Assembly (NCBI GenBank): GCA_031082125.1
Contig: JAVHLM010000022.1
Coordinates: 1-64,000, forward strand
DNA length: 64,000 bases
Direction of reading: 5' to 3'
From: Candidatus Eremiobacterota bacterium
GTDB taxonomy: Bacteria; Vulcanimicrobiota; CADAWZ01; Ess09-12
In this document: positions 38,037 to 52,916 of the stretch, in pieces
How positions within the stretch are numbered: the first letter of the stretch is position 1
How the letters are laid out: each line of letters opens with the position of its first letter
Notes under the pieces: generated by a model
Told to the model about the DNA's origin: nothing
Seen by the model: only the letters and a program-made list of their open reading frames with translations
The model's database searches: none
Position numbers and translations under genes: made by a program

Positions 38037-38090
38037 TTCACGGAGCCTTCACTGAGTTTTCATACTCCCTTCACAGAACTGCCCTATAAT
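38037..38090 (+). promoter_or_regulatory. four 11-bp TTCAC repeats plus -10, before the 36-residue peptide gene
   Basis: TTCACGGAGCC (38037), TTCACTGAGTT (38048), TTCATACTCCC (38059) and TTCACAGAACT (38070) are four tandem units at exact 11-base spacing. TATAAT begins at 38085, 15 bases after the start of the last unit, and there is no separate -35. This is the layout of activators of the PhoB/PhoP branch of OmpR-type regulators. Identical geometry occurs at 41144-41197 and 49474-49527. Confidence 0.75.
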
Positions 38091-38123
38091 GATATTCAGA
38101 ACAGGGCAAGGAAGGTGAATAAA

Positions 38124-38234
38124 ATGATTACCAGAGTGTTTGAAGGCAATGGAATTCCTCTGATCACAGGCTGCTCGCCCAACTGCATCTTCTCGCTTGT
38201 GGGCCTGACGATGGGGGCATATGGCGGCCGATAG
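38124..38234 (+). CDS. 36-residue peptide, candidate modified-peptide precursor
   Basis: ATG 38124 is preceded by AAGGAAGGTG (38108-38117) and by the four-repeat promoter whose -10 is at 38085, so it has both transcription and translation signals. The peptide starts MITRVFEGNGIPLITG and continues with a CSPNC pair, a hydrophobic stretch and a GAYGGR end. It is too small for an enzyme. A Cys pair plus a regulatory box shared with the ABC exporter and SPASM radical SAM genes suggests a substrate of that pair. It ends two bases from the convergent PQQ-propeller gene. It resembles no family I recognise. Confidence 0.5.
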   Translation: MITRVFEGNGIPLITGCSPNCIFSLVGLTMGAYGGR

Positions 38235-38236
38235 GC

Positions 38237-39805
38237 CTATGAAGGCTTCCGGGAGCCGGGCCCCTTGTCAAGGCGGAGGCCGTCGATAATGATGAAGTCA
38301 TCTTCTTCGGATATCTTCGCTTTTTCACCGGCATCTGCCTGCTCGGCCTGGACATCCTTCACGGCCTCCTGGACCTTTCCTTCTAAGGAGCGGCCGTCAA
38401 GGGCCATCATCTTCAGGGTGCCGTATTCCTGGGTGAAGACGGTGGTGCCGTCGGGCGCCACCTGCAGATCGCCAGCCCAGCCAAAGCCGTCGTTTCTTGA
38501 AAAAGGCTTTCCCGTTGCGGCATCAAGCCCATAGACTGTTTTTCCCACCTGCACGAAGAGCGCCCCTTTCGGCGAGAGCGCCTGGGGGCCGAGCTTCGCT
38601 CCTGCGGGGATATCGAGAGTCCAGAGAGGCGTTCCCTTTTCCATATCGAGAGCCTGGAGCTTGTCGCCGTCTTTCACGGTGAGCATGCCCTCCTCAGGGA
38701 ACATCCGGACATAGCGCTCATCACCCTGGGCCTTGCTCTCCCAGAGGGTTTTTCCCGTGACGGTGTCAAGGCAGAGGAGCGTTGAGGACTTCTGGCCGTC
38801 ACCCACGATGAGCTTCCCGCCGTGGGCGCCATGAAGCGTGACGCTTGAGATCCCCAGGTCGGCCGGTGTGCGCTCCCACTCCACGCCGCCCTTTTCCCTG
38901 TTCCTGACTTCCAGTTTTTCATTCTTCGGGATATAGACATGATCGCGGTCCTGGGGAAAAAAGCAGCTGTTGCGGCCGTCGGCCCTCCAGAGCTCCTTCC
39001 CCTTCGGTGACAGCGCCATGACATCATTACCGCTTGTCACGATGGCGGTGCCGGAGCTGTCTATGCCCACGATGGAAGGCGAGTACTTCCCTACTTTTCG
39101 CGAATACTTCTCGTCGCCGTCGGGGGTGAGGGCCACAAGCCGCTCTCCCCGGAAGGTGAAGATGGTCCCGTCAGGGCCTACCTGTGGTGCAGGGTCCCAC
39201 AGGCCGGTCTTGTTGCATTTATAGCTCCATTTTTCCTTGCCCGTCGAGGGATCAAGGCCATAAAGCCTGTCAAAGCCCAGCATTACAAGGAGGGTACTGT
39301 CCTTCCCCGTGGTGAGATAGCTTGCCGAGGGCTCAGAGTCGAACTCCTTCTGCCATGCCACCTGGCCCCTGGCCGTGTCATATTTCGCCAGAGTCTTGTA
39401 TCCTACCCCGTAAAGAGAGCCGTCTTCCATAAGCTTCATGCCCCCCGAGCTGCCGTGGACGCCAGGGAAGGCTACTTCCCAGAGGGGGCCGCTTTTCTGC
39501 TCAAAGAGCGCCGAGAGGGCGTCGAGGCTCACCGGTCCGCCCGATGCGGCATTCCTGAAGGAGGCTGCCATGAAACCTCTTGACGGCAGCTCCGATGAGA
39601 GGGAGGGTGATCCCACCGTGACAGAATCCGAGGGAGGAAGGTCCTCCTTCTGATTCCCCTCCCTGTGAAGCTTCATTGAAGGGGGGGTACTTCCCGTGTA
39701 TCCCGCTTTCTTGATCTCCATTGCCATCACCCTGCTTTCAGAGGTATCGCCTGCTGCCTGCACAAGTAGCGGCCTGCCGCGGCTCTCATAAATGCCGGAA
39801 GCCAT
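38237..39805 (-). CDS. PQQ-like beta-propeller protein
   Basis: The middle and C-terminal part (residues about 105-460) contains seven or so propeller blades with the PQQ/YVTN pattern: YGLDPSTGKEKWSYKC, ALSPKGKELWRADGR, LCLDTVTGKTLWESKA, QALDMEKGTPLWTLD, YGLDAATGKPFS. The first 100 residues are Ser/Pro-rich and there is no signal peptide. The tail EEDDFIIIDGLRLDKG recurs in the repeat protein at 15416. TATAAT on the minus strand (39819-39814) lies only eight bases before this ATG. The mRNA may therefore be leaderless, or translation may begin at 39727. Confidence 0.75.
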   Translation of the reverse strand: MASGIYESRGRPLLVQAAGDTSESRVMAMEIKKAGYTGSTPPSMKLHREGNQKEDLPPSDSVTVGSPSLSSELPSRGFMAASFRNAASGGPVSLDALSALFEQKSGPLWEVAFPGVHGSSGGMKLMEDGSLYGVGYKTLAKYDTARGQVAWQKEFDSEPSASYLTTGKDSTLLVMLGFDRLYGLDPSTGKEKWSYKCNKTGLWDPAPQVGPDGTIFTFRGERLVALTPDGDEKYSRKVGKYSPSIVGIDSSGTAIVTSGNDVMALSPKGKELWRADGRNSCFFPQDRDHVYIPKNEKLEVRNREKGGVEWERTPADLGISSVTLHGAHGGKLIVGDGQKSSTLLCLDTVTGKTLWESKAQGDERYVRMFPEEGMLTVKDGDKLQALDMEKGTPLWTLDIPAGAKLGPQALSPKGALFVQVGKTVYGLDAATGKPFSRNDGFGWAGDLQVAPDGTTVFTQEYGTLKMMALDGRSLEGKVQEAVKDVQAEQADAGEKAKISEEDDFIIIDGLRLDKGPGSRKPS

Positions 39806-39893
39806 GCGATTGTATTATATCATGCCTTTGCAGAAAAGTAATGAAACGAAATGTTAATATTCCGGCAGACCGCCCGGTATGGCGAGTGCGGCT

Positions 39894-40226
39894 CTACCTG
39901 AAGAAGGGGAGACCCAGGGTTTTTCTCAGCTTGATGAGGACTCCGGGGTCGCTGGTCTCTATGTAGGTGGAGAGGAGATCGCGCTCATACTCGCCCAGGC
40001 GGGCCAGGAAAGTCTCAGGCTCCAATTGCACCTCGCTGGCGAGAGCTATTACCGCAGGGTGATCAGGTCCCCCCTTGGACACCTCTTCCTTCGGCGATTC
40101 CGACGATGCCCCCTCTTCATTTTTCTCAAGAAGCGATTCTACGAAGCTCTTTACCGAGGGAAGGTCCTCCTCGGGAAGCTGATCAAGCATTGCTTCGATT
40201 TCCTGCCGGACTTCAGGGAGTTCCAT
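39894..40226 (-). CDS. small acidic helical protein of unknown function
   Basis: The ATG at 40226 has GGAGG four bases upstream. The 110-residue product opens with an amphipathic helix (VRQEIEAMLDQLPEEDLPSVKSFVESLL), similar to the helices found at the start of DUF2281-like antitoxin-type proteins. A Ser/Glu linker follows, then a C-terminal helical part with a basic end. No partner toxin is adjacent. It is transcribed towards the PQQ-propeller gene and away from the response regulator. Confidence 0.6.
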   Translation of the reverse strand: MELPEVRQEIEAMLDQLPEEDLPSVKSFVESLLEKNEEGASSESPKEEVSKGGPDHPAVIALASEVQLEPETFLARLGEYERDLLSTYIETSDPGVLIKLRKTLGLPFFR

Positions 40227-40415
40227 GGCGCCTCCTGGAAATTATAAATGGCCTGGTAAACAATCATATTCAAGCCGGGCTTTCATATCCCCTGCTGAAC
40301 CCGCCGGGAATGACAATCATGCCAGAGGAACTTTTCCTGGTATATCGCCTCGAAAATAAAGGAATAAGCAGCACCCTCTCTCTAATATTATTCAGGGAAG
40401 GAAAGGAGATTCACC

Positions 40416-41126
40416 TTGTCAGGATTGCTGATCCTCATTGCCGAAGACGACAGGACCCACAACACCGTCCTCAAGGATTACCTGGAAAAGATAGGTTACA
40501 GGACGGCCTCTGCCTTTGACGGGAAAGAGGCGCTGGAGCTCTTTTCAAGGCTGAAGCCCGATTTCGTCCTTCTGGATGTCATGATGCCCCATATGGACGG
40601 TATCGAGGTGTGCCGGACCTTGAGGAAAACCTCAGATACGCCCATCCTGATGCTCACTGCGCTCTCCGAAGAGACCGACAAGCTCATAGGTCTTGAAATC
40701 GGCGCCGACGACTACCTCACCAAGCCTTTCAGCCTCAAGGAAGTGGCGGCACGCATAAAGGCAATCATGCGCAGGTTCCGCTCCGGAGGAGAGGCTGGCA
40801 GCAACAAGGCAAAGATTGTCTCGGGCGACATGCTCATTGACACGGAAGCCTGCTCGGTGATACTCAGGGGCCTGGAATTGAAGCTTACGGCTACGGAGTT
40901 CAAGATACTTGAAGTCTTTGCGAGGCACCCCGGGAAGGTGCTGAGCCGCTCGCATATCGCCGAGCTCGCCTATGGCGACACTTTCGAAGGCTTTGACCGG
41001 ACAATTGACGCCCATATCAAAAATATAAGGCATAAATGCTCCTCCGTGGTGCCCGAGCACGACTTTATCGAGACCTCAAGAGGACTGGGGTACAAGTTCA
41101 TCGCCCAGGGCGAGCAGGGCAGATAA
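40416..41126 (+). CDS. orphan OmpR/PhoB-family response regulator
   Basis: A TTG start at 40416 with AAAGGAGAT seven bases upstream gives 236 residues. The receiver domain has the acidic pocket EDD (10-12), phospho-acceptor D54 in VLLDVMMPHMDG, the LTAL threonine and the KPF lysine. The C-terminal winged helix contains LTATEFKILEVFARHPGKVLSRSHIAELAYG and RTIDAHIKNIRHK..GLGYKF, the PhoB/PhoP subtype that binds tandem 11-base repeats. No histidine kinase gene is in the window. Three promoters with such repeats lie within 10 kb, one directly downstream, so these are its likely targets. Confidence 0.92.
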   Translation: MSGLLILIAEDDRTHNTVLKDYLEKIGYRTASAFDGKEALELFSRLKPDFVLLDVMMPHMDGIEVCRTLRKTSDTPILMLTALSEETDKLIGLEIGADDYLTKPFSLKEVAARIKAIMRRFRSGGEAGSNKAKIVSGDMLIDTEACSVILRGLELKLTATEFKILEVFARHPGKVLSRSHIAELAYGDTFEGFDRTIDAHIKNIRHKCSSVVPEHDFIETSRGLGYKFIAQGEQGR

Positions 41127-41143
41127 CTTCTTCCCGGCAGCCT

Positions 41144-41197
41144 TTCGCCGTTTTTTCACTGTATATTCATTATCCCTTCACATAAAGCCGATATACT
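41144..41197 (+). promoter_or_regulatory. four 11-bp TTC-type repeats plus -10, before the ABC exporter gene
   Basis: TTCGCCGTTTT (41144, degenerate), TTCACTGTATA (41155), TTCATTATCCC (41166) and TTCACATAAAG (41177) repeat at exact 11-base intervals, and TATACT begins at 41192, again 15 bases after the last unit begins. Transcription would start near 41204, ahead of the ABC-radical SAM operon and just behind the response regulator gene. Confidence 0.75.
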
Positions 41198-41249
41198 ATA
41201 TCCAGTCGGGAAAGCTCCCTGCAGAGGGCCCCCGGCTTCCTGAAGAGGA

Positions 41250-43025
41250 ATGGAAAGATGGGAAGAGGCAATGAAGTCAGTTAAAGAGTTCCTGAAACAG
41301 TTCTACGAGTTCTCTCCGAAAAAGATTTTCCTCTACATGGCCTGCACTCTCTCGAGCGCCATCCTGGAAGGTATCTCGCTCCTTCTGCTCGTGCCCTTCC
41401 TCAGCGCCGCAGGGATGGGTCCCTCCGCCGCGGCGGGAAAGCCCGCCTTTGACGAAAAGCTTCTCGTGGTGATACTGCTTCTCTTTCTCCTTATCACCAT
41501 AATAGAGGAATTTATCAAGCGGAGCACCTCCATCCTGATGATCGCCCTCAAGGCGGGATTTTACAGGGCGCTGAGCGACCGCTTCTACGAGGCCTTTGCC
41601 TGCTCGCGGTGGCAGGTAATCCTGAAACAGAGGAGATCCGACATCGCCAATGCCCTCACCAACGAGCTCAAGACCATCGACATAGGGACCCAGATATCGC
41701 TCCAGACTTTCAGCACCATTCCCTCGGTGCTCATCCAGATAGTGGTCGCTTTTGTCTTATCCTGGCAGGTGACTCTCGCAGCCATCGCCTGCGGCATTCT
41801 TTTCTTCCATGTCATGAAGCCGGTGAACAGAAAGCTCGGTGACATAGCTGAATCTCTTAACAACGTGCTCAGGGACAGCCTTTCCGACGTGAATGAGCAC
41901 CTGGGCGGCATCAAGGAGATAAAAGGGTACAGCGCGGAAAAGGTCCACTCAGAGCGCTATCAGAAAAAGACCCGCAGGACGGAAGAGCAATACGTGCAGT
42001 TCATCAGGACCTTCTCCACTTCCAATTTCATCTACAATACCGCAACAATCATCATGCTGGCCATCTTCATATATGGCGCCGTGGCCCTCTTTCACGAGAG
42101 CGTCGTGAAGCTCATCGTCCTCTCAATAGTATTCTTCAGGATATGGCCCCTCTTTGCCACCTACCAGACATCCCTCCAGTTTTTCATCATGATGATCCCG
42201 GCATGGGAGAGCTTCTCGAACAGGATGAGGGAGCTTGAGGAAGCCCGGGAGGAATCCATGGAAAAGCCCGGCACAGAGCCGATGGTATTACAGCAGGGCA
42301 TAGAAGTGAAGGATGTCACCTTCTCCTATAATCAGGAAGAAATACCTACCCTCCGGCACGTGAGCCTCTCCATCCCCGCCCACTCCTTTGTGGCCGTCAC
42401 GGGGCTCTCCGGCTCGGGAAAGAGCACCTTTGTCGATATACTGCTGGGCCTGCTTGAGCCCTCGTCAGGCGAGGTCACCATTGACGGGGAGACGCTGAAT
42501 CCCGCGATGGCTCACCTCTGGCGAAGCGCCATAGGCTTCGTGCCGCAGGACACCTTTCTTTTCAACGGCACCGTGAGGGAGAACCTGCTGTGGTCCCGGC
42601 CTTCCGCCACTGACGAAGAGATCATGGAGGCACTGAAGCTTGCCGCCGCCGATGATTTCGTCAAGGCCCTTCCCCAGAGCCTTGACACCGAATGCGGCGA
42701 CAGGGGCACGCGCTTTTCGGGAGGCGAGCGCCAGAGGATCGCCCTGGCGAGGGCCCTCCTCAGGAGCCCGTCGCTTCTCGTGCTGGATGAGGCCACGAGC
42801 TCCCTGGACACGGAAAATGAAAAGAGGATCATTGACGCCATAAAAAGCCTTCACGGGAAGATGACCATCCTGATAGTGGCCCACCGCCTCTCAACCATAA
42901 GGGAGGCTGACGAGATCGTGCTTTTCGAGAACGGCTCGGCGATAGAAAAAGGAACCTTCGGGATGCTGATGGAGCGGGAAAACGGGAGATTCCATGATCT
43001 GGCCCGTGAATATGCGATGAAATAA
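41250..43025 (+). CDS. ABC transporter, fused membrane and ATPase domains (exporter type)
   Basis: This 591-residue half-transporter has six helices in residues about 20-310 and a nucleotide-binding domain with Walker A (GLSGSGKSTF), signature FSGGERQRIALARALL, Walker B LLVLDEATSSLD and the switch His in VAHRLSTIREAD. There is no N-terminal C39 peptidase, so any leader must be cut elsewhere. It is the first gene after the 41144 repeat promoter and lies 14 bases before the SPASM radical SAM gene. Export of a modified peptide is the best inference; lipid or drug export is possible. Start codon uncertain: ATG 41250 or 41271. Confidence 0.88.
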   Translation: MERWEEAMKSVKEFLKQFYEFSPKKIFLYMACTLSSAILEGISLLLLVPFLSAAGMGPSAAAGKPAFDEKLLVVILLLFLLITIIEEFIKRSTSILMIALKAGFYRALSDRFYEAFACSRWQVILKQRRSDIANALTNELKTIDIGTQISLQTFSTIPSVLIQIVVAFVLSWQVTLAAIACGILFFHVMKPVNRKLGDIAESLNNVLRDSLSDVNEHLGGIKEIKGYSAEKVHSERYQKKTRRTEEQYVQFIRTFSTSNFIYNTATIIMLAIFIYGAVALFHESVVKLIVLSIVFFRIWPLFATYQTSLQFFIMMIPAWESFSNRMRELEEAREESMEKPGTEPMVLQQGIEVKDVTFSYNQEEIPTLRHVSLSIPAHSFVAVTGLSGSGKSTFVDILLGLLEPSSGEVTIDGETLNPAMAHLWRSAIGFVPQDTFLFNGTVRENLLWSRPSATDEEIMEALKLAAADDFVKALPQSLDTECGDRGTRFSGGERQRIALARALLRSPSLLVLDEATSSLDTENEKRIIDAIKSLHGKMTILIVAHRLSTIREADEIVLFENGSAIEKGTFGMLMERENGRFHDLAREYAMK

Positions 43026-43039
43026 AAGGAGGCGAGAGC

Positions 43040-44455
43040 ATGCTTCTGACATTCCAGTCATTCACCAACAATCCCTATGTCTATGATCCCCGGTCCAACG
43101 AGATCTTCAGGGTTGACGAGCATGTCTTCGAAGAGCTCACCACAGCCGGCGGGAACATCTCGGAAATCCGTGATGAAAAAGTGAGACAGGGCTTCCGGGA
43201 CGCCGGTGTGAGCGACGAGGTGCTGCCGCTCGAGGACCATGATCTGTTCAAGAAAGAGATAGATGCCATGCAGATCGGCATGCGGAAGCTCATTATCGGC
43301 CTTGCCCACACCTGCAACCTCCGCTGCAAGTACTGCATATACTCGGGAAACTATGCCGACGAGCGATCCCACGAGGGAAAACAGATGACAGAAGAGACAG
43401 CAGACAGGCTCATCGACGTCTTCTATGTCAAAAGAGGCGATGATTACCCGAAAATGTGCATCTTTTACGGCGGTGAGCCCTTCACCAACTTCCCCATCCT
43501 GAAGAGGATAGTGGAAAAAATCACGGCCCTCAGGGATGACGTGGGCTTCAGCGCCACGACAAACGGCCTGATGCTGAAAAACGAGGAGATCCTGGATTTC
43601 ATCAAAAGCTATGACTTTGTCATCAACATAAGCTTTGACGGCCCCTCGCAGGAAGCCATGCGCATCGACCAGAACGGCCGGGGAACCTTTAATGACCTCA
43701 TGGGCCTCATAGAGCACATAGCCGAAAAATACCCTGATTTTTACAGGGAAAAAGTGGGCTTCAACGTGACGGTGACGCCGGCATCGGACCTCCACGAGAC
43801 CGTGGAGTTCTTCAACACGAATCCCCTCTTCAGTGGCAAGACGCTGAACGTCATCAGGCACTATGACCCCGACAACGTCTTCTGCAGGAAGTACGATCTG
43901 ATGGACCATGAAAAGACGCTCCGCGATGAATTCGACAAGCTCAGGAGAGAGTACCCCGCGGTCTTCAAGGAGCACAGGCCCTTCCACGACGGCTGCTACC
44001 TCTCTCCCCTCGCGCGCCTCGACCAGAGGCCCATGGGCGACGTGACAAGACTCCCCCTCAACTCATGCTGCTACCCCGGCCTCAATGCCGTATTCGTGGA
44101 TATAGACGGCACCTGCTCGCCCTGCGAGCGCACAGAGCACATCAAGCTCGGGAGCATCTATGACGACGAGCCCGTTAACCTGAAAACCGCCGAGGAGCTC
44201 GTGAAGAAATACCAGGAAATTGCAGGCAGGCACTGCCCCCGGTGCTGGGCCGCACGCCTCTGCGCCAAGTGCTTCTCCCACGTGAGGAGAGGCACTGTCA
44301 CCGAGGAGAACTTTGTAGCCAACTGTGACGACTTCAGGGAATCCTTCCGAAAGTCGATGGAGCTCTTCACGACCATCAAGGAAATTGACGAGAATGCCTT
44401 TGCCGACGTGAAGGTGATCACGGAGCTCCCGGTGAAGGAGAAGCAGAAGGCATAG
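43040..44455 (+). CDS. radical SAM/SPASM protein, probable peptide maturase
   Basis: AGGAGG precedes the ATG. Residues 1-80 (YVYDPRSNEIFRVDEHVFEEL) look like the precursor-recognition start seen in peptide maturases. The radical SAM core has C92-x3-C96-x2-C99 (HTCNLRCKYC), FYGGEPFTN and TNGLML. The C-terminal third holds SPASM cysteines: NSCCYPG, GTCSPCERTEHIKLGS, then HCPRCWAARLCAKCF and ANCDDF, enough for two auxiliary [4Fe-4S] clusters. Such enzymes install thioether, C-C or other crosslinks in ribosomal peptides. It is co-transcribed with the ABC exporter. The substrate may be the peptide at 38124. Confidence 0.85.
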   Translation: MLLTFQSFTNNPYVYDPRSNEIFRVDEHVFEELTTAGGNISEIRDEKVRQGFRDAGVSDEVLPLEDHDLFKKEIDAMQIGMRKLIIGLAHTCNLRCKYCIYSGNYADERSHEGKQMTEETADRLIDVFYVKRGDDYPKMCIFYGGEPFTNFPILKRIVEKITALRDDVGFSATTNGLMLKNEEILDFIKSYDFVINISFDGPSQEAMRIDQNGRGTFNDLMGLIEHIAEKYPDFYREKVGFNVTVTPASDLHETVEFFNTNPLFSGKTLNVIRHYDPDNVFCRKYDLMDHEKTLRDEFDKLRREYPAVFKEHRPFHDGCYLSPLARLDQRPMGDVTRLPLNSCCYPGLNAVFVDIDGTCSPCERTEHIKLGSIYDDEPVNLKTAEELVKKYQEIAGRHCPRCWAARLCAKCFSHVRRGTVTEENFVANCDDFRESFRKSMELFTTIKEIDENAFADVKVITELPVKEKQKA

Positions 44456-44464
44456 GGAGCAAAT

Positions 44465-44956
44465 ATGCTGCTTGACTATAAAAGCATTTTCACGGAATTG
44501 AACCGGCTCGCCATCGACTACGTGGTAGTCGGAGGAATGGCCGTCAACTTTCACGGCATTCCAAGGATGACCTACGACATAGATCTCATGATCCTGCTGG
44601 AAAAGGACAATATTGAAAAGACCGTGAGGCTGCTCATACAATGGGGCTACAGGGTAAGGATTCCCGTTGATCCCATGGAGCTGGCGGATGAGGAGAAGAG
44701 GAATTCCTGGAGATCGGAAAAGAATATGAAAGCGATGAATTTTTATTCTGATACGCTGGCAATCGGAGAAATAGACATACTCTTTGATTCACCGGTTTCC
44801 TATGAGGTTATGAAAGCCCATGCCGCGATCATGGAAATCGGAAAAGAGAAGATACCCTTTGCCTCCATCCAGGATCTTATCGCAATGAAAGAGCATGCGG
44901 GGCGAAGGCAGGACCTCAGTGATATTGAGCATCTGCGCCTGATTATGGAGAGATGA
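44465..44956 (+). CDS. nucleotidyltransferase-fold protein (DUF6036/AbiEii-like)
   Basis: At 163 residues, it has the minimal nucleotidyltransferase core: YVVVGGMAVNFHGIPRMTYDIDLMI supplies the GG..A/H.. loop and the D-x-D pair, and IGEIDILFD the third carboxylate. Similar stand-alone proteins pair with a small partner and behave like toxin-antitoxin or phage-defence modules. Here a 59-residue frame overlaps its stop. It begins ten bases after the radical SAM gene and may be in its operon, but a functional link is not obvious. Confidence 0.75.
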   Translation: MLLDYKSIFTELNRLAIDYVVVGGMAVNFHGIPRMTYDIDLMILLEKDNIEKTVRLLIQWGYRVRIPVDPMELADEEKRNSWRSEKNMKAMNFYSDTLAIGEIDILFDSPVSYEVMKAHAAIMEIGKEKIPFASIQDLIAMKEHAGRRQDLSDIEHLRLIMER

Positions 44957-45132
44957 TGGAAGAGCAGAAAAAGGGCTTCAGCTACACGGTGAGCCCCTCT
45001 CAGATTGACGAGTACAAGAGCTGGCCCGTTGAACGCCGGCTCGAATGGCTGCTCTACGGCAACATGCTGAGAAGAGAGCTCCCCGAGAAAACCAGGGAGC
45101 TCCACGATGCCTTCCGTGAAGGCCGGCAGTAA
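44953..45132 (+). CDS. small partner protein of the nucleotidyltransferase
   Basis: An ATG at 44953 overlaps the preceding stop codon (ATGATGG), with GGAGAG in front, and runs 59 codons. The product is helical and charged: FSYTVSPSQIDEYKSWPVERRLEWLLYGN, then MLRRELPEKTRELHDAF. WP.E.RLEWL is a motif I associate with short proteins encoded directly after such nucleotidyltransferases, so it is probably the cognate partner. Too small to be found by length alone; the overlap and composition support it. Confidence 0.65.
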   Translation: MMEEQKKGFSYTVSPSQIDEYKSWPVERRLEWLLYGNMLRRELPEKTRELHDAFREGRQ

Positions 45133-45198
45133 TAGCCCTCGGAAGTTGCCCTTTCCTGCTCCTCTGTGTATAACAGAAAAAAGAAAGGTGGGTGTTCC

Positions 45199-47847
45199 AT
45201 GGAAGAAAGACAGGTTCTTGATACCTCCATCGACACCGTGACGGTGTTCCACAAGGCGGCGCTGGTGCAGAGGCTCGGAAGGCTCCCTGATCTTACGGGA
45301 AAGATCACTGCGCAGTTCCTGGTGAAGGGGCTCCCCCTCGCCATGGACAGCGCCTCCCTGAGGGTCGGCGTCATCGACCGGAGCGGGTGGAAAGAGACTG
45401 ACGGGAAGGAAGAGCAGGCAGGGAAAAGGATCAAGTTCATCCACCGGTCGGGATGGACCGTGCGGAATATCATCGTGGAAGTGGACCGGATTGACGACGA
45501 GCAGAAGGCTGCTGAAGAGAGCCCCGCCACCCTTGAGCCCCTGGAAGATGAGATAATAAGGCTTGGCGGCGAGATGAAAGGTCTTCAGAGCCAGATAGAC
45601 GAGGTGAAAAAATGGATGGCGATGCCGCCATCACTTCCCGCCGGTGAAGAGAATGTGGCCATGAAGCCCTTTCCCTTCCATGCATGGGAAGGCTTCGTAA
45701 AAACCTGCGAAAAGCACCTTGAGAGGCTCAGCGTCAGGAAGCGGGAGATTCAACGGAAGCTCAGCGAAGCGGTCCAGAGAGAGCAGCAGGCAAGGGCGCT
45801 TCTTGAGAGAGGGCGCCTCGCACGGTGCGCCACCGCCCCCGTCCGCTACTGCAGAAACCTCGTCATCACGCTTGCAAGGATAAGCGAATCCGGTGAGGCC
45901 CCTGAGAGCCTCGAGCTGTCGTACATTGTGCCCGGCGCCTGCTGGAAGCCCGTCTACTCCCTTCATATAGACAAGGAGTATAAGAACGTGCGCCTGGTCA
46001 TGGGAGCCCAGGTGGCCCAGCGAAGCGGCGAGGACTGGCCCCAGGCGAAGCTCCGCTTCTCCGGTGCGTCACTTCAGAGGGTCCTTGCTCTTCCGGATCT
46101 CCCCTCGAAAAGGATAGGAAGAGCGCAGAAGCTCAAGCCTCCCTCTTACCGCGTCAAGGCACCGCCGCCCCAGGATCTGTTTGCTGCCTTTGACAGGTGG
46201 CTCCAGCAGGAAAAAGTTGCCGAGAAGCCTCTTTTCACCACTGTGGACTTTCTTTTTGACAGCTACGAGAAAACCGCGGGGCAGATCATTGCCGAATCCA
46301 CAGGGGCTTATCCCCCTTCCAGCGCTGCCTCAGTGGAAAGGACTCTCCAGAAGGCAGGGAAAGCCTCCGCCCCCCGCGCCAAGGAAAGCCCGTCCGCCCG
46401 CGGCACCTCTCCCCACGAGACGGTAAAGCAGCTTCTTAAAAGAGCTTTTCAGGCCCCGAGCGAAGAACAGGCCGTACAGCTCTATGAGGAAGTGCTGACC
46501 CTTGACCCGACAAATCCCACGGCATGCAGGGAGCTCACCAGGCTGGCGTCTTCTCTTTTCGATGATGAGCAGGTTTTCGGCTCGGCAGATCATGACGCTT
46601 CTTTATGGGAAGTCCCTCTCGGCGGGGCTTCTTCATTTGATCTTTCTCAGGGTGCAATACCGGAAATGGCGCCGATGCCGGAAGCATCTTATGCTGAACA
46701 ATCCGAGACCCTCTTCGAGGGCGCCCCCCCCGAGATGCCGTCGTTCTCAGGGCCGATGAGCCGCGATATCATGCCCACTCCGAAACAGGACTTGTTAATG
46801 GCCAGAAGGAGCAGCATCCCCGCAGCCCCGCCCCCTCCCTCTCCCGCGCCGCAGATACAGGCGAAAATCCTTCCCACCTCTGCGCCCGGCAAGAAAAGGA
46901 TGCAGAAGCAGGAAGCTTTCAGGGAAAAGGCGCTGACGGGCACCCTGATGCCTGACCTGGAGCTTGATAGTGAGGAGGTCCTCTGGTCCGGCGAGCCTCT
47001 CGCAGGTCCCGGTAACGCCCCTGACTTCAGCAACTTCGAGCTTGACGGCATAGAAGACCGCCAGCGGGGCCGCCTCAGGATGGTGAGATCCCTCTCACTT
47101 TCGGAGCGCGTAGAAGAGAGCGAAACTGCCGTGATGCAGAGAATCGCCCGGGCGGTAAAGGCAGCTCAGGTCACGCTCCCGGGCCTGGAAGACATGCCTT
47201 CATTCCAATGCGTCTACGAGGCTGAGACAAGAGCCCACATCCCCGGCGACGGCTATCCGTACCGCATCGATCTCTTTGAGGGAAAGAGCGGGGCAAAAGT
47301 TCATTTCCGCTCGGTGCCCATGACAGATCCCCAGGTCTTCAGGCGGCTCATCGCGCAGAATCCCTTTCCCCTCCCTCTGCTGGGCGGCGCCGTGCAGGTC
47401 TTTCTGGAAAAAGCCTATCTTTTCTCGACAACCCTCAGCGATGTGGGCAGGGAAGGCGCCCTCACCTTTTCCCTTGGCGTCGAGCCCAGGCTCCGCGTCG
47501 CGAGGAACACCTCCTTTTCCCAGGATGAGAAGGGCCTCGTGGCCGAGAGCTCCCTGGCGAACCACCGCGTCACCATCCAGGTGCGCTCGCGGCTCCCCGA
47601 GCCTGCAGAGGTGGAAGTGATAGAGAGAATCCCCGTCAAGGAGGAGAGCGAGAAAAAAATTGACATCAAGATCATCACCTGTGAGCCGAAAGCCGATCTG
47701 CCTGAGTTCATCGGTGAGACAAGGCTCAGGGGCGCGCACCGCTGGAACCTTGCCGTGGCGCCTGGAGAAGAGGCTTCCATAAGGCTTGAATACCGCATTG
47801 CCATCCCTTCAAAGATGGAGCTGGCAGGCGGGAACAGGAGGATATAG
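45199..47847 (+). CDS. DUF4140/DUF4139 (MuiA-like) protein, long form
   Basis: ATG 45199 (GGTGGG upstream) gives 882 residues. The N-terminal part (DTVTVFHKAALVQRLG..FLVKGLPLAMDSASLRVGV) is the DUF4140 strand pattern, followed by a coiled coil (about residues 150-210). GACWKPVYSLHIDKEYKNVRLVMGAQVAQRSGEDWPQAKLRFSGA is the DUF4139 hallmark. A Pro/Ala-rich insert of some 300 residues containing one TPR-like helix pair splits the DUF4139 region, which resumes with AHIPGDGYPYRIDLFEGK. No signal peptide. Function unknown; relatives are called mucoidy inhibitors. The gene at 47850 is a paralogue in tandem. Confidence 0.78.
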   Translation: MEERQVLDTSIDTVTVFHKAALVQRLGRLPDLTGKITAQFLVKGLPLAMDSASLRVGVIDRSGWKETDGKEEQAGKRIKFIHRSGWTVRNIIVEVDRIDDEQKAAEESPATLEPLEDEIIRLGGEMKGLQSQIDEVKKWMAMPPSLPAGEENVAMKPFPFHAWEGFVKTCEKHLERLSVRKREIQRKLSEAVQREQQARALLERGRLARCATAPVRYCRNLVITLARISESGEAPESLELSYIVPGACWKPVYSLHIDKEYKNVRLVMGAQVAQRSGEDWPQAKLRFSGASLQRVLALPDLPSKRIGRAQKLKPPSYRVKAPPPQDLFAAFDRWLQQEKVAEKPLFTTVDFLFDSYEKTAGQIIAESTGAYPPSSAASVERTLQKAGKASAPRAKESPSARGTSPHETVKQLLKRAFQAPSEEQAVQLYEEVLTLDPTNPTACRELTRLASSLFDDEQVFGSADHDASLWEVPLGGASSFDLSQGAIPEMAPMPEASYAEQSETLFEGAPPEMPSFSGPMSRDIMPTPKQDLLMARRSSIPAAPPPPSPAPQIQAKILPTSAPGKKRMQKQEAFREKALTGTLMPDLELDSEEVLWSGEPLAGPGNAPDFSNFELDGIEDRQRGRLRMVRSLSLSERVEESETAVMQRIARAVKAAQVTLPGLEDMPSFQCVYEAETRAHIPGDGYPYRIDLFEGKSGAKVHFRSVPMTDPQVFRRLIAQNPFPLPLLGGAVQVFLEKAYLFSTTLSDVGREGALTFSLGVEPRLRVARNTSFSQDEKGLVAESSLANHRVTIQVRSRLPEPAEVEVIERIPVKEESEKKIDIKIITCEPKADLPEFIGETRLRGAHRWNLAVAPGEEASIRLEYRIAIPSKMELAGGNRRI

Positions 47848-47849
47848 CC

Positions 47850-49457
47850 ATGACAATGGAACTCGCAAAGTTGCCCAGAGCCGGGCTCCCTGAAAACCGC
47901 ACTGCCGTCGATGCTCCTGTAACGGACGTCACCATCACGGAAGACCAGGCTGACGTGGCAAGGAAGATCCCCGTCACATGGGAAAAGGGAATGCATCACT
48001 TTTTCATCACGCCCGTCACTCCTTACCTCGTGGACTCTACGCTCTGGGCCGAGGTGCTCCCCTCTGCCGATATGCCCTCTCCCCACATAGGGAGCGCCCG
48101 TGTGGTGAGGTGGTCCCTGGCAGACATCCCCCTCACAGGGGAGGACGAAACGACATTCCGGGGGCTCCTGGCAACCCTGGGAGAAAAAATTAATGAGCTC
48201 TCCGAGAGAAAAGCCCGCCTTGCCCTCCTCAGGGGAAGCCTCGCCAGGGGGCTCCCGCCGGCGGCGCAGAGCGTCATAGAAGAGGTAGTGGCATCGGGCG
48301 CGGAGCCGGAAAGCTATCAGGAGCTCCTGGGCCGCGTCCTTGCAACCCTGGAATCTCTCTCCCGCGAGGAGCAGGCAATAGTAAGCCTGGGGATGGGCTA
48401 TGAAAAAGAGCTCATCAGCCTCAGGAGGGACTGGCTGGAAAAGACCTCACAGGAGCTCCACGTGACGTGGCTGGCGGGAATCCTTGTCACCATAGAGGCG
48501 AAAGAAGGCGGCCAGGGAACACTGCGCTGCGGTTACCAGGTGCCCTGCGCCCAGTGGAGGCCCCAGCATGAAGCCCATCTCATCAGCGAGAGCAGGGTCC
48601 TCCTGGTCACCAATGCAGTGGTATGGCAGAACACCGGCGAAGACTGGAACGGCGTCACCCTTACCCTCTCGACGGCAAAGCCCAGCGCGGGAATGGATGC
48701 CCTCCTCCCCCGGGAGGATATCGTGAAGCTCAGGGAAAAAACAAAAGAGGAGCGCTCCAGGATAAAGGTCGAGACCAGGGACCAGGCTATACAGACCACT
48801 GGCGTGGGCGCCGCAGAGGCCGAGGAGCCGCCCCTTCCCGCCGACGGCGGTGAAACGCAGCTTTACCGCATCGGGGAAAAAGTCACGGTCCCTGCCACGG
48901 GGCGCCCTTGTTATATAAGAATAAGCGGGCAGGAGATGGATGGCCAGGCAGCTCTCATGGCCACGCCGGAACTGGACAGCCATGTGTTTCTGGTCTCACA
49001 GGTCAAAAACGCCTCAGAGCGGCCTCTTCTCGCGGGGCCTGTGACGCTCCACAGGATGGGAGCTTACGTAGGGACAGGGCAGCTCGAGTTCACCGGCTCC
49101 AATGAAATGTTCCACCTCTGGTGGGGTTCAGAGGACCTCATCAGGATTGAGCGCTTCGCTGACAGGAAAGAGGAGGAGGCCACCCTCATCGCGCCCAGGA
49201 AAATCACCACGACAATCACGCTGCTCGTGAGAAATCTTTCGGGGGACCCGCAGGAGTTCACGATCAGGGAGCGGGTGCCGGTAAGCGAGCTGGAGCAGAT
49301 CAGGGTAAAAATCAGGGAAATGCCCCCGGAGGCCACGGCGCCCGACAGTAACGGCTTCCTGGCCATTCACGCGTCGGTGGGGCCGCGGGAAGAGAAAAAA
49401 TACCGTGTAAGCTTCTTGATGGAGGTAGACAAGGAAGTGGACTTTGCCGGCCTATGA
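47850..49457 (+). CDS. DUF4140/DUF4139 (MuiA-like) protein, short form
   Basis: It starts two bases after the long paralogue. The 535 residues have DUF4140 (APVTDVTITEDQADVARKIPVTWEKGMHHFFI), a central coiled coil, and an uninterrupted DUF4139 domain (QVPCAQWRPQHEAHLISESRVLLVTNAVVWQNTGEDWNGVTLTLSTA, then RISGQEMDGQAALMATPELDSHVFLVSQVKN). The tail is typical (EFTIRERVPVSELEQIRVKI). The tight linkage suggests the two proteins form a mixed complex. No export signal, so probably cytoplasmic. The stop codon lies within a GCCGG/CCGGC hairpin that may weaken downstream reading. Confidence 0.78.
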   Translation: MTMELAKLPRAGLPENRTAVDAPVTDVTITEDQADVARKIPVTWEKGMHHFFITPVTPYLVDSTLWAEVLPSADMPSPHIGSARVVRWSLADIPLTGEDETTFRGLLATLGEKINELSERKARLALLRGSLARGLPPAAQSVIEEVVASGAEPESYQELLGRVLATLESLSREEQAIVSLGMGYEKELISLRRDWLEKTSQELHVTWLAGILVTIEAKEGGQGTLRCGYQVPCAQWRPQHEAHLISESRVLLVTNAVVWQNTGEDWNGVTLTLSTAKPSAGMDALLPREDIVKLREKTKEERSRIKVETRDQAIQTTGVGAAEAEEPPLPADGGETQLYRIGEKVTVPATGRPCYIRISGQEMDGQAALMATPELDSHVFLVSQVKNASERPLLAGPVTLHRMGAYVGTGQLEFTGSNEMFHLWWGSEDLIRIERFADRKEEEATLIAPRKITTTITLLVRNLSGDPQEFTIRERVPVSELEQIRVKIREMPPEATAPDSNGFLAIHASVGPREEKKYRVSFLMEVDKEVDFAGL

Positions 49458-49473
49458 AAACCGGCAGGGAAAA

Positions 49474-49527
49474 TTCACGGCTCCTTCACGGAACCTTCAT
49501 CATTCCTTCACAAGGCCGTGGTATCAT
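49474..49527 (+). promoter_or_regulatory. four 11-bp TTCA repeats plus -10, driving a short transcript towards hxsC
   Basis: TTCACGGCTCC (49474), TTCACGGAACC (49485), TTCATCATTCC (49496) and TTCACAAGGCC (49507) are exact 11-base tandem units. TATCAT begins at 49522, 15 bases after the last unit, as in the two other copies. It points into the 3' end of the oppositely transcribed hxsC. Confidence 0.75.
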
Positions 49528-49533
49528 GAAGCT

Positions 49534-49616
49534 GTCGAGGAGAAGGGGGTGGTGAGAAGAGGAGCACTGAGAACGAAGAGCGGTCACAGGAAAATGGAGG
49601 TTCCCCCCTCCTTTTT
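49534..49616 (+). ncRNA. candidate short regulatory RNA antisense to the hxsC 3' end
   Basis: The predicted start near 49534 and the terminator ending at 49616 bound about 83 bases. A GTG frame with AGGAG upstream exists near 49550 but would be cut by the terminator, so a peptide is unlikely. The last 33 bases are complementary to the end of the hxsC coding sequence including its stop codon (49584). It might tune hxsC message stability, linking the response-regulator circuit to the hxs operon. Entirely predicted. Confidence 0.4.
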
Positions 49617-50759
49617 CTGCTTTTCGGGAATGGTATCTCCTCCTTTGAAAGGCTTTATCTGTGAAGGCTTCCTGACGGAGGTTCCGAAAAATCCTCCGCA
49701 TGAGGCCTTTTGCGAGCACTCCCCGCATTCAGGGAGGAACATCTTCTTCCAGTCCGAGATGCTGTCACGGGCGAAGGGACGGACCTTTTCGGAAATGAGG
49801 CAGAGGGGGAGATTGTAAAGGGAGACCCTCATCATGCGCTGATTCAAAAAGACTACGGCCTTTTCGAGCGCGCCGCGGTAGTCTGAAGGCTCAACCCATA
49901 CCTCATCGAGATTGGCACAGGCCACACCGGAAGTCTCCATTGCCATGAAAGCTATGTGGACGGCGAAAGGGAAGTTCCAGAAGATGAAATGGGCCAGGTC
50001 GGCGAGGCGCTCTGCATTCTGCCGCACGATAACCACCCGGATCTCGATGGGGCGGCCGTACCTCACCAGGTTGTGGATGCCGGCGACAGTCTCGCGAAAT
50101 GATCCCTTTGCACCGGTGATTGCATCGTGCTCGACATCATTGTCGGCAAAGACGGGGATACAGAAAACAAGTCCCCGCGGGGCGCTTTCAGCAACCCTCG
50201 TGGCCACCTGGAAGTCAGCAAGCCTCCTGCCGTTCGTGAGAAGCTGCACCGGTGACGAGGGAAAGCGCTCCCTCAAAAGGTCCAGAACCTCGACAAGGCC
50301 GTCGAGCACAAGGGTGGGCTCGCCGCCAGTGATGCCGAAGGAGGGAGGCTCCGGGACCGCGAGAAGCCGGAGCATTCTTTTTGCCGTTTCATCGTGATGG
50401 CAGGGATGGGCCTCGGGGGTCTGGGGGCACATGATGCAGCGGGAATTGCAGTAATCGGTGAGATAGAGAGGGTTCTGGCGGGAGCCGGTATCCCAGACAA
50501 GGCTGATACGCCCGTCGGGGTCCACCTTTACGATATCCCCTTCCCTCAGTCGGGTCAGAAAACCGCCGGGGACACTGCAAAGCCCCGTCATCTTTTCATC
50601 TCCCGGCGACGAAGTGATGCAGAAGTCCTCCCTTCCCTGGCTTTCGCCGCATACAAGCGCCGTATCGGCCCTCTCCTTCCGGTGAGCTTTCGGGGTGGTG
50701 GTGATCCGGCGCACCTGTGATGCATCGATGCGGCGGGGAATTCCTTTACTTTCCTTCAT
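49584..50759 (-). CDS. hxsC: His-Xaa-Ser system radical SAM maturase HxsC
   Basis: Starting at MKESKGIPRR (50759), inside the last 14 bases of hxsB, gives 391 residues. The SAM-cluster motif is C104-x3-C108-x2-C111 (TDYCNSRCIMCPQTP), followed by FGITGGEPTLVLDGLVEVL and LLTNGRRLADF. The C-terminal CGECSQKASCGGFF supplies further cysteines. HxsC is one of two paired radical SAM enzymes predicted to act on the His-Xaa-Ser repeat peptide HxsA. Its final codons (EGGTS) encode the stem of a terminator used on the other strand. The long upstream extension of this frame lies antisense-like within hxsB and is not used. Confidence 0.85.
   Translation of the reverse strand: MKESKGIPRRIDASQVRRITTTPKAHRKERADTALVCGESQGREDFCITSSPGDEKMTGLCSVPGGFLTRLREGDIVKVDPDGRISLVWDTGSRQNPLYLTDYCNSRCIMCPQTPEAHPCHHDETAKRMLRLLAVPEPPSFGITGGEPTLVLDGLVEVLDLLRERFPSSPVQLLTNGRRLADFQVATRVAESAPRGLVFCIPVFADNDVEHDAITGAKGSFRETVAGIHNLVRYGRPIEIRVVIVRQNAERLADLAHFIFWNFPFAVHIAFMAMETSGVACANLDEVWVEPSDYRGALEKAVVFLNQRMMRVSLYNLPLCLISEKVRPFARDSISDWKKMFLPECGECSQKASCGGFFGTSVRKPSQIKPFKGGDTIPEKQKKEGGTSIFL
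49596..49616 (+). terminator. intrinsic terminator, possibly bidirectional
   Basis: GGAGG (49596-49600) pairs with CCTCC (49607-49611) across a six-base loop, followed by five T residues (49612-49616). On the minus strand the same stem is followed by ATTTT, so it may also weakly stop hxs transcripts, although it lies just inside hxsC. Confidence 0.55.
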
Positions 50760-52215
50760 CGGGCACGCACCTGAAGCCTTCCCTCTGAATCCATGACCAG
50801 AACACCTCCATGACCCTCTCATCATTCTCGATGAGCTTTCCGAAGAGGTAATCCAGGATCCCCATATTCTTCGTGCAGAACTCGCTCCCCGGCCTTCTTC
50901 CCCTGATATCGCCGCGCTCCACGTAGTAGCGGACTGGATCGGCGCCGCAGTAAGGCTGATACACACACTGGGCGCACATGGGGAGCATCTCGACGCAGCT
51001 TTCACGGACAAGCTCGCGGAGCAGCGGTCCCCCGAAGATCTCGCCGTGGCTCTGGTGAAGCACATTCCCCATAAGGAAGCGCTTGTCGCCCATGCGGGCG
51101 AGCATCCGCCCCTCGTCGGCGGGATAGACCTCGCCGTTGTAGTCATAGACGGCGCCACTTATCCCTGCGCCCGCCGGCGACTGGAGGTCCACGAAGCCCG
51201 TCGAGAAGGGAGTGAGGATCCGCAGGAGCAGGAACTCCGCATAGAGCTCTGAAAAGTAGGTCCCCTTCATGTTCAGCTCGATGAGGTACTCCAGCGCATC
51301 CCTGTAAGCCTCGACGAACTCCCGGGCCGGATAGCCCAGGTGGTCCCGGTTTTTTACGGCAAACCCGTAAGGGTTGAGGCCTCTCAGGAATATGCTCCGG
51401 AATCCCATGCCAAGGTAATGATCTATGATCTCCCTGAGGCGGGTAATGTTATCTCTCGTGATGGTGAGAAGGGCGCTGCAGGACTGGGGATTAATGCTCC
51501 TGCGGTAAAAAGCGAGATTCCTGACGAAACGGTCATAGCTGCTGCCGTTGTCGCGGCTCCTGCGGTGGAGATCATGGAGCTCCTTCGGACCGTCGAGCGA
51601 CGTGGAAAACGCCATCCTGTGCTCCCGGCAGAACTTCGCCCACTTCTCTTCGGCATGGAGCAGGTTCGAGCACACCACGAAATCCAGATACTTCTTCTTT
51701 TTCCTGTTGAGCTTCTCAGCCTTTTTCACGATAAGCTCAATAATGGGCCAGTTGAGCGTGGGCTCGCCGCCCTGGAACTCTATTTTCACTCCCGGAGAGG
51801 GTGAATCAAAAATGACCTCGACCACTTTCTCTGCCACCTCAGGGGTCATATCAAAGCCCTTCGAGGCGGGATCGGTGCTTGATGCCTGGCAATAATCGCA
51901 CATGCAGCTGCAGCGCGCAGTGATTACTACCATGTGAAGAGCGGTGAAATCGCGCATGTAAGCTCTTTTTGAGCGCATCTTCACCGCCATGAGCTCAATG
52001 GCGAGATCGAGATCGTCATCGGCGATAAAATGCCTGCCCTTGAGGGGAAAATAGAGGCTCCCGAGGTCTCCGGGCCTGCGGGCTTCCAGAAGCTGCGAGA
52101 ACTGCCCCTCATCAATGAGGGTGAACTCTCCGTTCAGGTTCACAAGAAGGACCCGGTCGCCGCCGAGCTTCTTGAAATGAAAGGGAAGAAGAGTGAGGGT
52201 GCCGGCTGCGCTCAT
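50746..52215 (-). CDS. hxsB: His-Xaa-Ser system radical SAM maturase HxsB
   Basis: A 489-residue radical SAM protein. An N-terminal segment (LLPFHFKKLGGDRVLLVNLNGEFTLIDEGQF) is the HxsB-type precursor-binding-like start. The cluster motif is C102-x3-C106-x2-C109 (ARCSCMCDYCQASS), then EFQGGEPTLNWPI and the SPASM-like end CVEMLPMCAQCVYQPYCGADPVRYY with EFCTKNMG. It overlaps hxsD by 4 bases and hxsC by 14, so all are co-translated. The chemistry on HxsA is not established; peptide crosslinking or oxidation is expected by analogy. Confidence 0.88.
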   Translation of the reverse strand: MSAAGTLTLLPFHFKKLGGDRVLLVNLNGEFTLIDEGQFSQLLEARRPGDLGSLYFPLKGRHFIADDDLDLAIELMAVKMRSKRAYMRDFTALHMVVITARCSCMCDYCQASSTDPASKGFDMTPEVAEKVVEVIFDSPSPGVKIEFQGGEPTLNWPIIELIVKKAEKLNRKKKKYLDFVVCSNLLHAEEKWAKFCREHRMAFSTSLDGPKELHDLHRRSRDNGSSYDRFVRNLAFYRRSINPQSCSALLTITRDNITRLREIIDHYLGMGFRSIFLRGLNPYGFAVKNRDHLGYPAREFVEAYRDALEYLIELNMKGTYFSELYAEFLLLRILTPFSTGFVDLQSPAGAGISGAVYDYNGEVYPADEGRMLARMGDKRFLMGNVLHQSHGEIFGGPLLRELVRESCVEMLPMCAQCVYQPYCGADPVRYYVERGDIRGRRPGSEFCTKNMGILDYLFGKLIENDERVMEVFWSWIQREGFRCVPDEGK

Positions 52216-52547
52216 TGCTTCTTCTCTTCAACTTCGATGGGGAGAAATGCGTGGCGGTAAAGTATCTCCCGCAGCGCCCCCGTGCGCTTCATCAGGTCAA
52301 GGCGCACCTGCTCTTCAATGATGTCGTTGAGAAGCTCACCGGCGGCTTTCTCGCCCTCTCTGCCATTATTGCCGCCCTTGCATTGAAGGAGCACCGCGTA
52401 AGACTGTTCTCCACAGGGCTCCACTTTCACATAGAAGAGCTCATTAAGCTTCTGTGCGGCCGTAAAAACTGCTTCGCGCTCATAGAGCAGAGATGAGACT
52501 TCAACGCGGTAAAGATCGGGAGAGAGCTTTTCCACTATGTGTTCCAT
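52212..52547 (-). CDS. hxsD: His-Xaa-Ser system protein HxsD
   Basis: A 111-residue protein. It opens VEVSSLLYEREAVFTAAQKLNELFYVKVEP, then CGEQSYAVLLQCK, and ends with ELLNDIIEEQVRLDLMKRTGALREILYRHAF. That last part corresponds to the LLNDYxLRE hallmark from which HxsD was named. HxsD is small, has no catalytic motif, and may bridge precursor and maturases. The ATG has GGAGG upstream. It lies between hxsA (51 bases) and hxsB (4-base overlap), the standard order. Confidence 0.82.
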   Translation of the reverse strand: MEHIVEKLSPDLYRVEVSSLLYEREAVFTAAQKLNELFYVKVEPCGEQSYAVLLQCKGGNNGREGEKAAGELLNDIIEEQVRLDLMKRTGALREILYRHAFLPIEVEEKKQ

Positions 52548-52598
52548 AGGTCCTCCAAAGGCCCCTGCCCCCCGGAGAGGGGCAGGGGCTCTGTGCCG

Positions 52599-52916
52599 TT
52601 ACCAGCCGCTCCAGTGAGAGCCATGAGAGCCATGGCCTCCGCCGGACCAGTGATCGCCGGAGTAATGATTCCCATGGGAAAAGTGGTTCCAATGAAGGGG
52701 AGAGATTTTGCCATTGGAAGCCTTTTCTCCATCGACAGTGAGGGTATAGTCACTGACGCTGTGCTGCAGGTACACAGGGCTCGAGGGATCTACCTTCTGC
52801 TTGACTGGCTCTTTCTTCTCATCGGGCATGGCCTTGGCCTGGCTTGTGCCGACGAGGGAGGCGAGCCACCCGAGAAGCATCAGGGAGCCTCCCAGGTACT
52901 TCAGAAACTTGGACAT
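52599..52916 (-). CDS. hxsA: His-Xaa-Ser repeat peptide HxsA (modified-peptide precursor)
   Basis: This 105-residue precursor has an export signal (MSKFLKYLGGSLMLLGWLASLVGTSQAKA) and a Lys/Glu/Pro linker. From residue 75 it has a His/Gly/Ser/Trp tail with six His-x-Ser units: HFS (78), HYS (84), HWS (89), HGS (95), HGS (98), HWS (101), ending SGW. This matches the repeat that defines HxsA. The tail is the probable site of modification by HxsB/HxsC, and the mature product should lie outside the inner membrane. It follows the MORN gene by 39 bases; a strong ribosome site (AAGGAGG) supports high expression. Confidence 0.88.
   Translation of the reverse strand: MSKFLKYLGGSLMLLGWLASLVGTSQAKAMPDEKKEPVKQKVDPSSPVYLQHSVSDYTLTVDGEKASNGKISPLHWNHFSHGNHYSGDHWSGGGHGSHGSHWSGW

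Follow-up and report, generated by a model that had tools for sequence, protein, structure and literature searches.

Response regulators of the OmpR/PhoB type bind tandem direct repeats with an 11-nt period, such as GTTCACC in Streptomyces coelicolor (PMC4415409; PMC4832192), and activation by PhoB depends on a strictly set distance from the core promoter (PMC10294691). In the prochlorosin system, scattered precursors are served by one promiscuous enzyme (PMC10783134). Here we describe a locus that recalls both, in a 64-kb stretch of Candidatus Eremiobacterota contig JAVHLM010000022.1 (positions 1 to 64,000, hereafter the window), where three copies of a four-unit TTCAC operator lie around the gene for an orphan OmpR/PhoB-type regulator. 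As in the PHO-box operators of Escherichia coli PhoB, of S. coelicolor and Bacillus subtilis PhoP and of the Mycobacterium tuberculosis PhoP repeats, an OmpR/PhoB-type regulator is found with head-to-tail 11-bp repeats that occupy a fixed place just upstream of the -10 and have the TTCAC core of GTTCACC. In contrast to those operators, four or more units are normal here, no kinase is linked, Pst/PhoU genes are absent, and the targets are small peptides, a radical S-adenosylmethionine (SAM)/ATP-binding cassette (ABC) gene cassette and secreted proteins. With the prochlorosins and synechococsins (ProcM, SyncM) the locus has in common many genome-scattered candidate precursor genes and presumably one maturation cassette, but a radical SAM/SPASM enzyme stands in place of LanM, the putative precursors are much shorter and without a Nif11 leader, and the scattered genes are tied by one dedicated operator.

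A four-unit operator recurring across the genome

A pattern search of the window for four TTCAC units at an 11-bp period returned only the sites starting at 38037, 41144 and 49474, against an expectation of 0 from 100 shuffles. All three, which we refer to as class A operators, are on the forward strand. Operator 1 (38037..38075; TTCACGGAGCC TTCACTGAGTT TTCATACTCCC TTCACA) is followed by the -10 sequence TATAAT at 38085..38090, 15 nt past the start of unit 4 and without a -35. Operator 2 (41144..41182; TTCGCCGTTTT TTCACTGTATA TTCATTATCCC TTCACA), whose first unit reads TTCGC, departing from TTCAC, begins 18 nt past the stop codon of the regulator gene and is followed by TATACT at 41192..41197; operator 3 (49474..49512; TTCACGGCTCC TTCACGGAACC TTCATCATTCC TTCACA) is followed by TATCAT at 49522..49527. 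The exact 11-base period and the -10 at +15 that an earlier note had claimed for these boxes were thus all seen on reading the sequence. The same note held that unit 3 is always TTCAT and unit 4 always TTCACA, which is correct for the window (3/3 sites) but not genome-wide, where the proportions are 5/16 and 7/16, respectively.

To the earlier count of three promoters the genome adds considerably, bringing it to ~16. Searching the whole 7.43-Mb genome with the class A pattern without any -10, and with the reversed pattern as control, we obtained 18 rows corresponding to 17 distinct sites, and 0 for the control. When the sites were aligned, a -10 was present exactly at +15 in 16 of the 17, the exception being C1:148648; the arrays on contigs C13 and C16 contain a fifth repeat, and their last four units fall into register after a shift by one repeat. 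The -10 is TATAAT in eight of the 16 promoters and a near variant in the remainder. At a spacer of 16-18 bp, the best match to a -35 element was 3 of 6 or worse at all 16 promoters; the class A sites therefore look like activator-dependent promoters in which the last repeat takes the -35 position. Leave-one-out matrix scores were 24-57 bits, compared with a maximum of 7.6 for shuffled sequence (~470 kb). A pattern combining box and -10, which includes both operator classes described here, gave 34 rows in this genome and 0 for the control. A separate box-plus-minus-10 pattern gave 23 matches here and only 0-4 background-like ones in each of 57 further genomes from the phylum. Random occurrence across the genome, which would have counted against the earlier note, is not what we see: the motif does recur, but as promoters, an outcome in the note's favour. 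The genome-wide regulon and its promoter geometry are established by these data.

Peptide genes and the exporter operon

Seven of the 16 class A promoters precede a Shine-Dalgarno sequence and a 32-36-codon open reading frame (ORF) of one family, located 84-98 nt past the start of the first repeat. The predicted products start with MI(T/Q)(R/K/S)(V/M)(F/Y)xG, then vary, and end in a hydrophobic tail with a Cys pair. The 36-residue peptide gene that had been named as a target of operator 1 (38124..38234, +; MITRVFEGNGIPLITGCSPNCIFSLVGLTMGAYGGR) indeed lies downstream of it and belongs to this scattered family, whose other boxed members are MITRVFEGRGIHLPTCKTGGCLFDPRLYVSVLPFSS, MITKVFAGKGNDITQCPSMCVIELALVTMMAVAR, MITRVFSGNGGIQKGCPICYLSPAAFLGSYPG, MITRMYGGNGGCGKGSCWWCLANVVLLATNMP, MIQSVFRGGTKDIIICVRCIQGQVAYLVTMPL and MIQRVFRGGTARISVCFRCISGQVAFIVNMPL, the last with a GTG start codon. 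The genome encodes at least eight paralogs, seven with a box, and each tail has two or more Cys; we regard the family as established. The closest pair of genes differs by 12 changes at the third codon position, compared with 7 and 6 at the other positions. Across 149 genomes, the peptide-start pattern gave one chance-like match outside this genome. Several matches with two mismatches were dismissed as ordinary genes or noise, with the exception of MINRIYAGDCNGVGSNTCFWHCLANVFVAAITKTT on C26. At C2:43202 and C20:85749, the box, the peptide gene and a tRNA-Tyr gene form a duplicated segment (L085 ~6700; L090 ~4750-5080).

Operator 2 heads a tight six-gene operon, all on the forward strand, and the ABC exporter and radical SAM genes previously put forward as its targets lie directly past it. 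The exporter (41250..43025) comprises a membrane domain and an ATPase and is followed by a putative radical SAM peptide maturase (43040..44455), an AbiEii-like nucleotidyltransferase (44465..44956), a small 58-59-aa protein (44953..45132) and two MuiA/DUF4139 proteins (45166..47847, with a possible start at 45199, and 47850..49457). The radical SAM enzyme has the CxxxCxxC motif at residues 92-99 (C92/C96/C99) and a SPASM-like C-terminal Cys cluster (C359-C429); residues 1-85 gave no significant Pfam match that would point to a leader-binding domain (RiPP recognition element, RRE). Its best NCBIfam match is the Cys-rich peptide maturase CcpM (TIGR04068), with which it has in common a radical SAM domain, a SPASM-like Cys pattern and a substrate, putative here, with paired Cys. 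The match is full-length, but at 224 bits it is far under the equivalog cut-off of 500, and the candidate substrates match no NCBIfam precursor model. The peptide gene 38124..38234 is ~5 kb from the enzyme gene. Given the operator common to both and the Cys pairs in the peptides, the most economical reading is that the cassette probably modifies these peptides and exports them.

Two orphan regulators and two operator classes

The regulator gene (40416..41126, +) lies between boxes 1 and 2, and its product has the OmpR-type domains expected of the orphan PhoB-like regulator described before, namely a receiver (PF00072, 105 bits) and a winged-helix Trans_reg_C domain (PF00486, 77 bits). The residues for receiver phosphorylation are intact (the acidic pair in AEDD, the aspartate in LLDVMMP, the threonine in MLTA and the lysine in TKPF). 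Against the PhoB model TIGR02154 the protein scored 192 bits, under the equivalog cut-off of 296, and the closest solved structures by sequence are BaeR and RegX3 (170 and 158 bits), a matter of sequence relatedness only. Both BaeR and RegX3 come with a cognate sensor kinase; here, none of the 126 HATPase_c domains in the genome is encoded on the regulator's 138-kb contig (C22), and the regulator is an orphan. Its relatives elsewhere are only 34-46% identical and are unspecific regulators, which precluded phylogenetic footprinting.

The genome encodes nine OmpR-type regulators, and seven of the eight others have an adjacent kinase. Only one further regulator is an orphan (C28:20914-21633), and 52 nt past its gene lies a four-unit operator that belongs to a second class. 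A class B operator is built from four 11-bp units of the TTCAG/TTTCA type, in many cases with GGTTAC or GGTAAC ahead of them, and has a -10 like GCCGNTGAAA; at the C28 site (C28:21685, directly past the orphan gene) the -10 is reminiscent of GCCGATAA. Other class B sites are at C4:140942(-), C25:99762, C37:42913, C5:113988, C8:34479(-), C8:33034(-) and C25:32880, and probably at C11:76185, C18:44942, C50:24413(-) and C65:2843(-). The C28 site was picked up by a matrix derived from six class B sites other than itself and thus is an independent prediction. Each orphan regulator gene is directly trailed by an operator of one class, which favours pairing each class with the neighbouring orphan. 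By a rough estimate, the chance of finding an operator within 200 bp downstream of any regulator is ~0.004 per class (16 class A or 14 class B sites x 9 genes x 200 bp / 7.43 Mb). The regulator assignment finds its best support in this parallel, although it falls short of proof, and the pattern hints at a straightforward way of matching regulators to operators.

The class B sites precede genes for proteins that are rich in Ser, Gln and Met and lack signal peptides; some contain a glucosaminidase or transglutaminase domain. These proteins could be substrates of an FHIPEP-type export machine. We also noted 15 matches to FHIPEP, the flagellar/type III export gate, in this genome, at about ten places and several of them partial (C6:232205, C1:233200, C38:10127, C31:75182, C6:58989, C1:155409, C56:11984, C41:27749 and others). 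Tentatively, and at slightly less than even odds, a dedicated orphan regulator may have evolved its own four-unit operator to coordinate scattered, minimal (32-36 aa) radical-SAM-modified peptides with one maturation/export cassette and secreted proteins, and a paralogous orphan with the second operator class would control other putatively exported proteins.

Taken together, we consider it likely (probability roughly 0.7) that the class A boxes are the operators of one regulon of ~16 promoters, most likely bound by the regulator encoded at 40416-41126, and that the peptides and the cassette are activated together. By analogy with known OmpR/PhoB regulators, regulator molecules would bind head-to-tail to the four 11-bp TTCAC units, the last of which would cover the place of the absent -35, and there contact RNA polymerase (class II activation), with transcription starting from the -10 at its fixed spacing. 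The repeat and -10 geometry (16/16 promoters at +15) bears out this part of the earlier suggestion of PhoB/PhoP-type operators; that the regulator activates rather than represses, and is served by an unlinked kinase, is what we infer. Activation would yield the scattered 32-36-residue Cys-pair peptides together with the exporter/radical SAM cassette, which probably modifies them (thioether-type) and exports them; a sulfatase, a PilZ protein and further proteins that are secreted or sit at the surface would be made as well. Through the repeats, a complete regulon is defined at the level of sequence in a lineage of which hardly any relatives have been sampled. The tiny stand-alone genes, which match no model, are likely missed by gene callers and by miners of ribosomally synthesized and post-translationally modified peptides (RiPPs). 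Should the peptides prove to be maturase substrates, this would be a scattered-precursor system in which the promoter alone suffices to list the members, and the broader problem of how to find orphan RiPP precursors would become directly testable.

Several observations weigh against this interpretation. The regulator's own gene has no upstream box, no clear target gene could be named for two of the 16 sites (49474 in the window and C51:5821), and one class A site (C2:306397) is ~9 kb from an OmpR-type regulator that has a kinase (C2:315592). The eighth peptide paralog (MINRIYAGDCNGVGSNTCFWHCLANVFVAAITKTT; C26:4977, minus strand, stretch L103) has no detectable box, the peptides matched no known precursor family among the NCBIfam models, and no C39 leader-peptidase domain was found in the exporter. 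Orthologs of the radical SAM enzyme and cassette were found in none of 148 other genomes of the phylum at 1e-30 and not in the wider contig collection, so neither the regulator-operator nor the maturase-peptide pairing could be checked by co-occurrence. The operators might instead belong to another OmpR-type regulator, such as the kinase-paired ones on C32 or C2, with the window regulator a mere neighbour or having other targets. The presence of nine such regulators, the C32 protein with its adjacent PAS kinase and typical PhoB-type recognition helix, and the proximity of the C2 regulator to a class A site are in line with this possibility. However, three of the 16 class A boxes are within 9 kb of the window regulator, no class A site was found in the fetched stretches round any of the other regulators (several kb each for those on C32, C6, C20, C3, C16, C25 and C2), and chance is an improbable reason for both orphans being directly trailed by operators, each of a different class; we consider this explanation unlikely.

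A slightly better case, though still an unlikely one, can be made for a real regulon in which the peptides are not maturase substrates but act unmodified, for example as small membrane or signalling peptides, while the radical SAM enzyme works on something else. The hydrophobic tails, the lack of a known precursor family and the missing Pfam match to any leader-binding domain at the enzyme's N-terminus (residues 1-85) would fit such a role, but the peptides have their operator in common with the maturase/exporter cassette, they join a short, conserved N-terminus to a tail that is hypervariable around its Cys pair, and one of their genes is 5 kb from the enzyme gene. Because the unit core and period agree with the Streptomyces PhoP PHO box (GTTCACC every 11 nt; PMC4415409), a phosphate (Pho) regulon also was weighed. 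This is very improbable, and a classical Pho regulon was rejected: in the 7.4-Mb genome, which is 97.6% complete, PhoU was not found and the best PstB match was 177 of 343 bits, under the curated cut-off, and among the identified targets there is no phosphate transporter, the sole such hydrolase being a sulfatase-family enzyme. The chance that the boxes are accidental or dispersed copies of a mobile repeat is negligible; C2:43202 and C20:85749 do have the duplicated segment in common, but in the 16-site alignment the remaining sites are alike in the motif alone, with unrelated spacers and flanks and an exact -10 distance.

Other targets and the third box

Further class A targets, beyond the peptides and the operon that the orphan probably controls, encode two lipoproteins, one of them C10 peptidase-like, a sulfatase, a PilZ protein and two small secreted proteins with a common DYGF motif. 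The members of the secreted pair (L091:6690-7127, minus strand, and L092:4712-5224, plus strand) have the same mature N-terminus, ADYGF(E/G)PS..SG(Y/H)GF, and then diverge fully; judged from their sequences, they resemble a second precursor-type family.

The third target originally proposed, a short RNA overlapping hxsC, fared less well. Past box 3 we detected a terminator-like hairpin and T-run (49596..49611, +), weak evidence that would close a transcript of ~85 nt, but the candidate RNA folded no better than shuffled sequences (z +0.87) and an Rfam search returned no family. An alternative to the RNA at this site is an 89-codon ORF with a GTG start. The hxsC gene (49584..51158, -; TIGR03977, 322 bits, over the cut-off) is antisense to the putative box-3 transcript and is part of a His-Xaa-Ser cassette (49584-52916, minus strand), in which HxsC and HxsB scored above the cut-offs and HxsD-like and HxsA4-like proteins below them.

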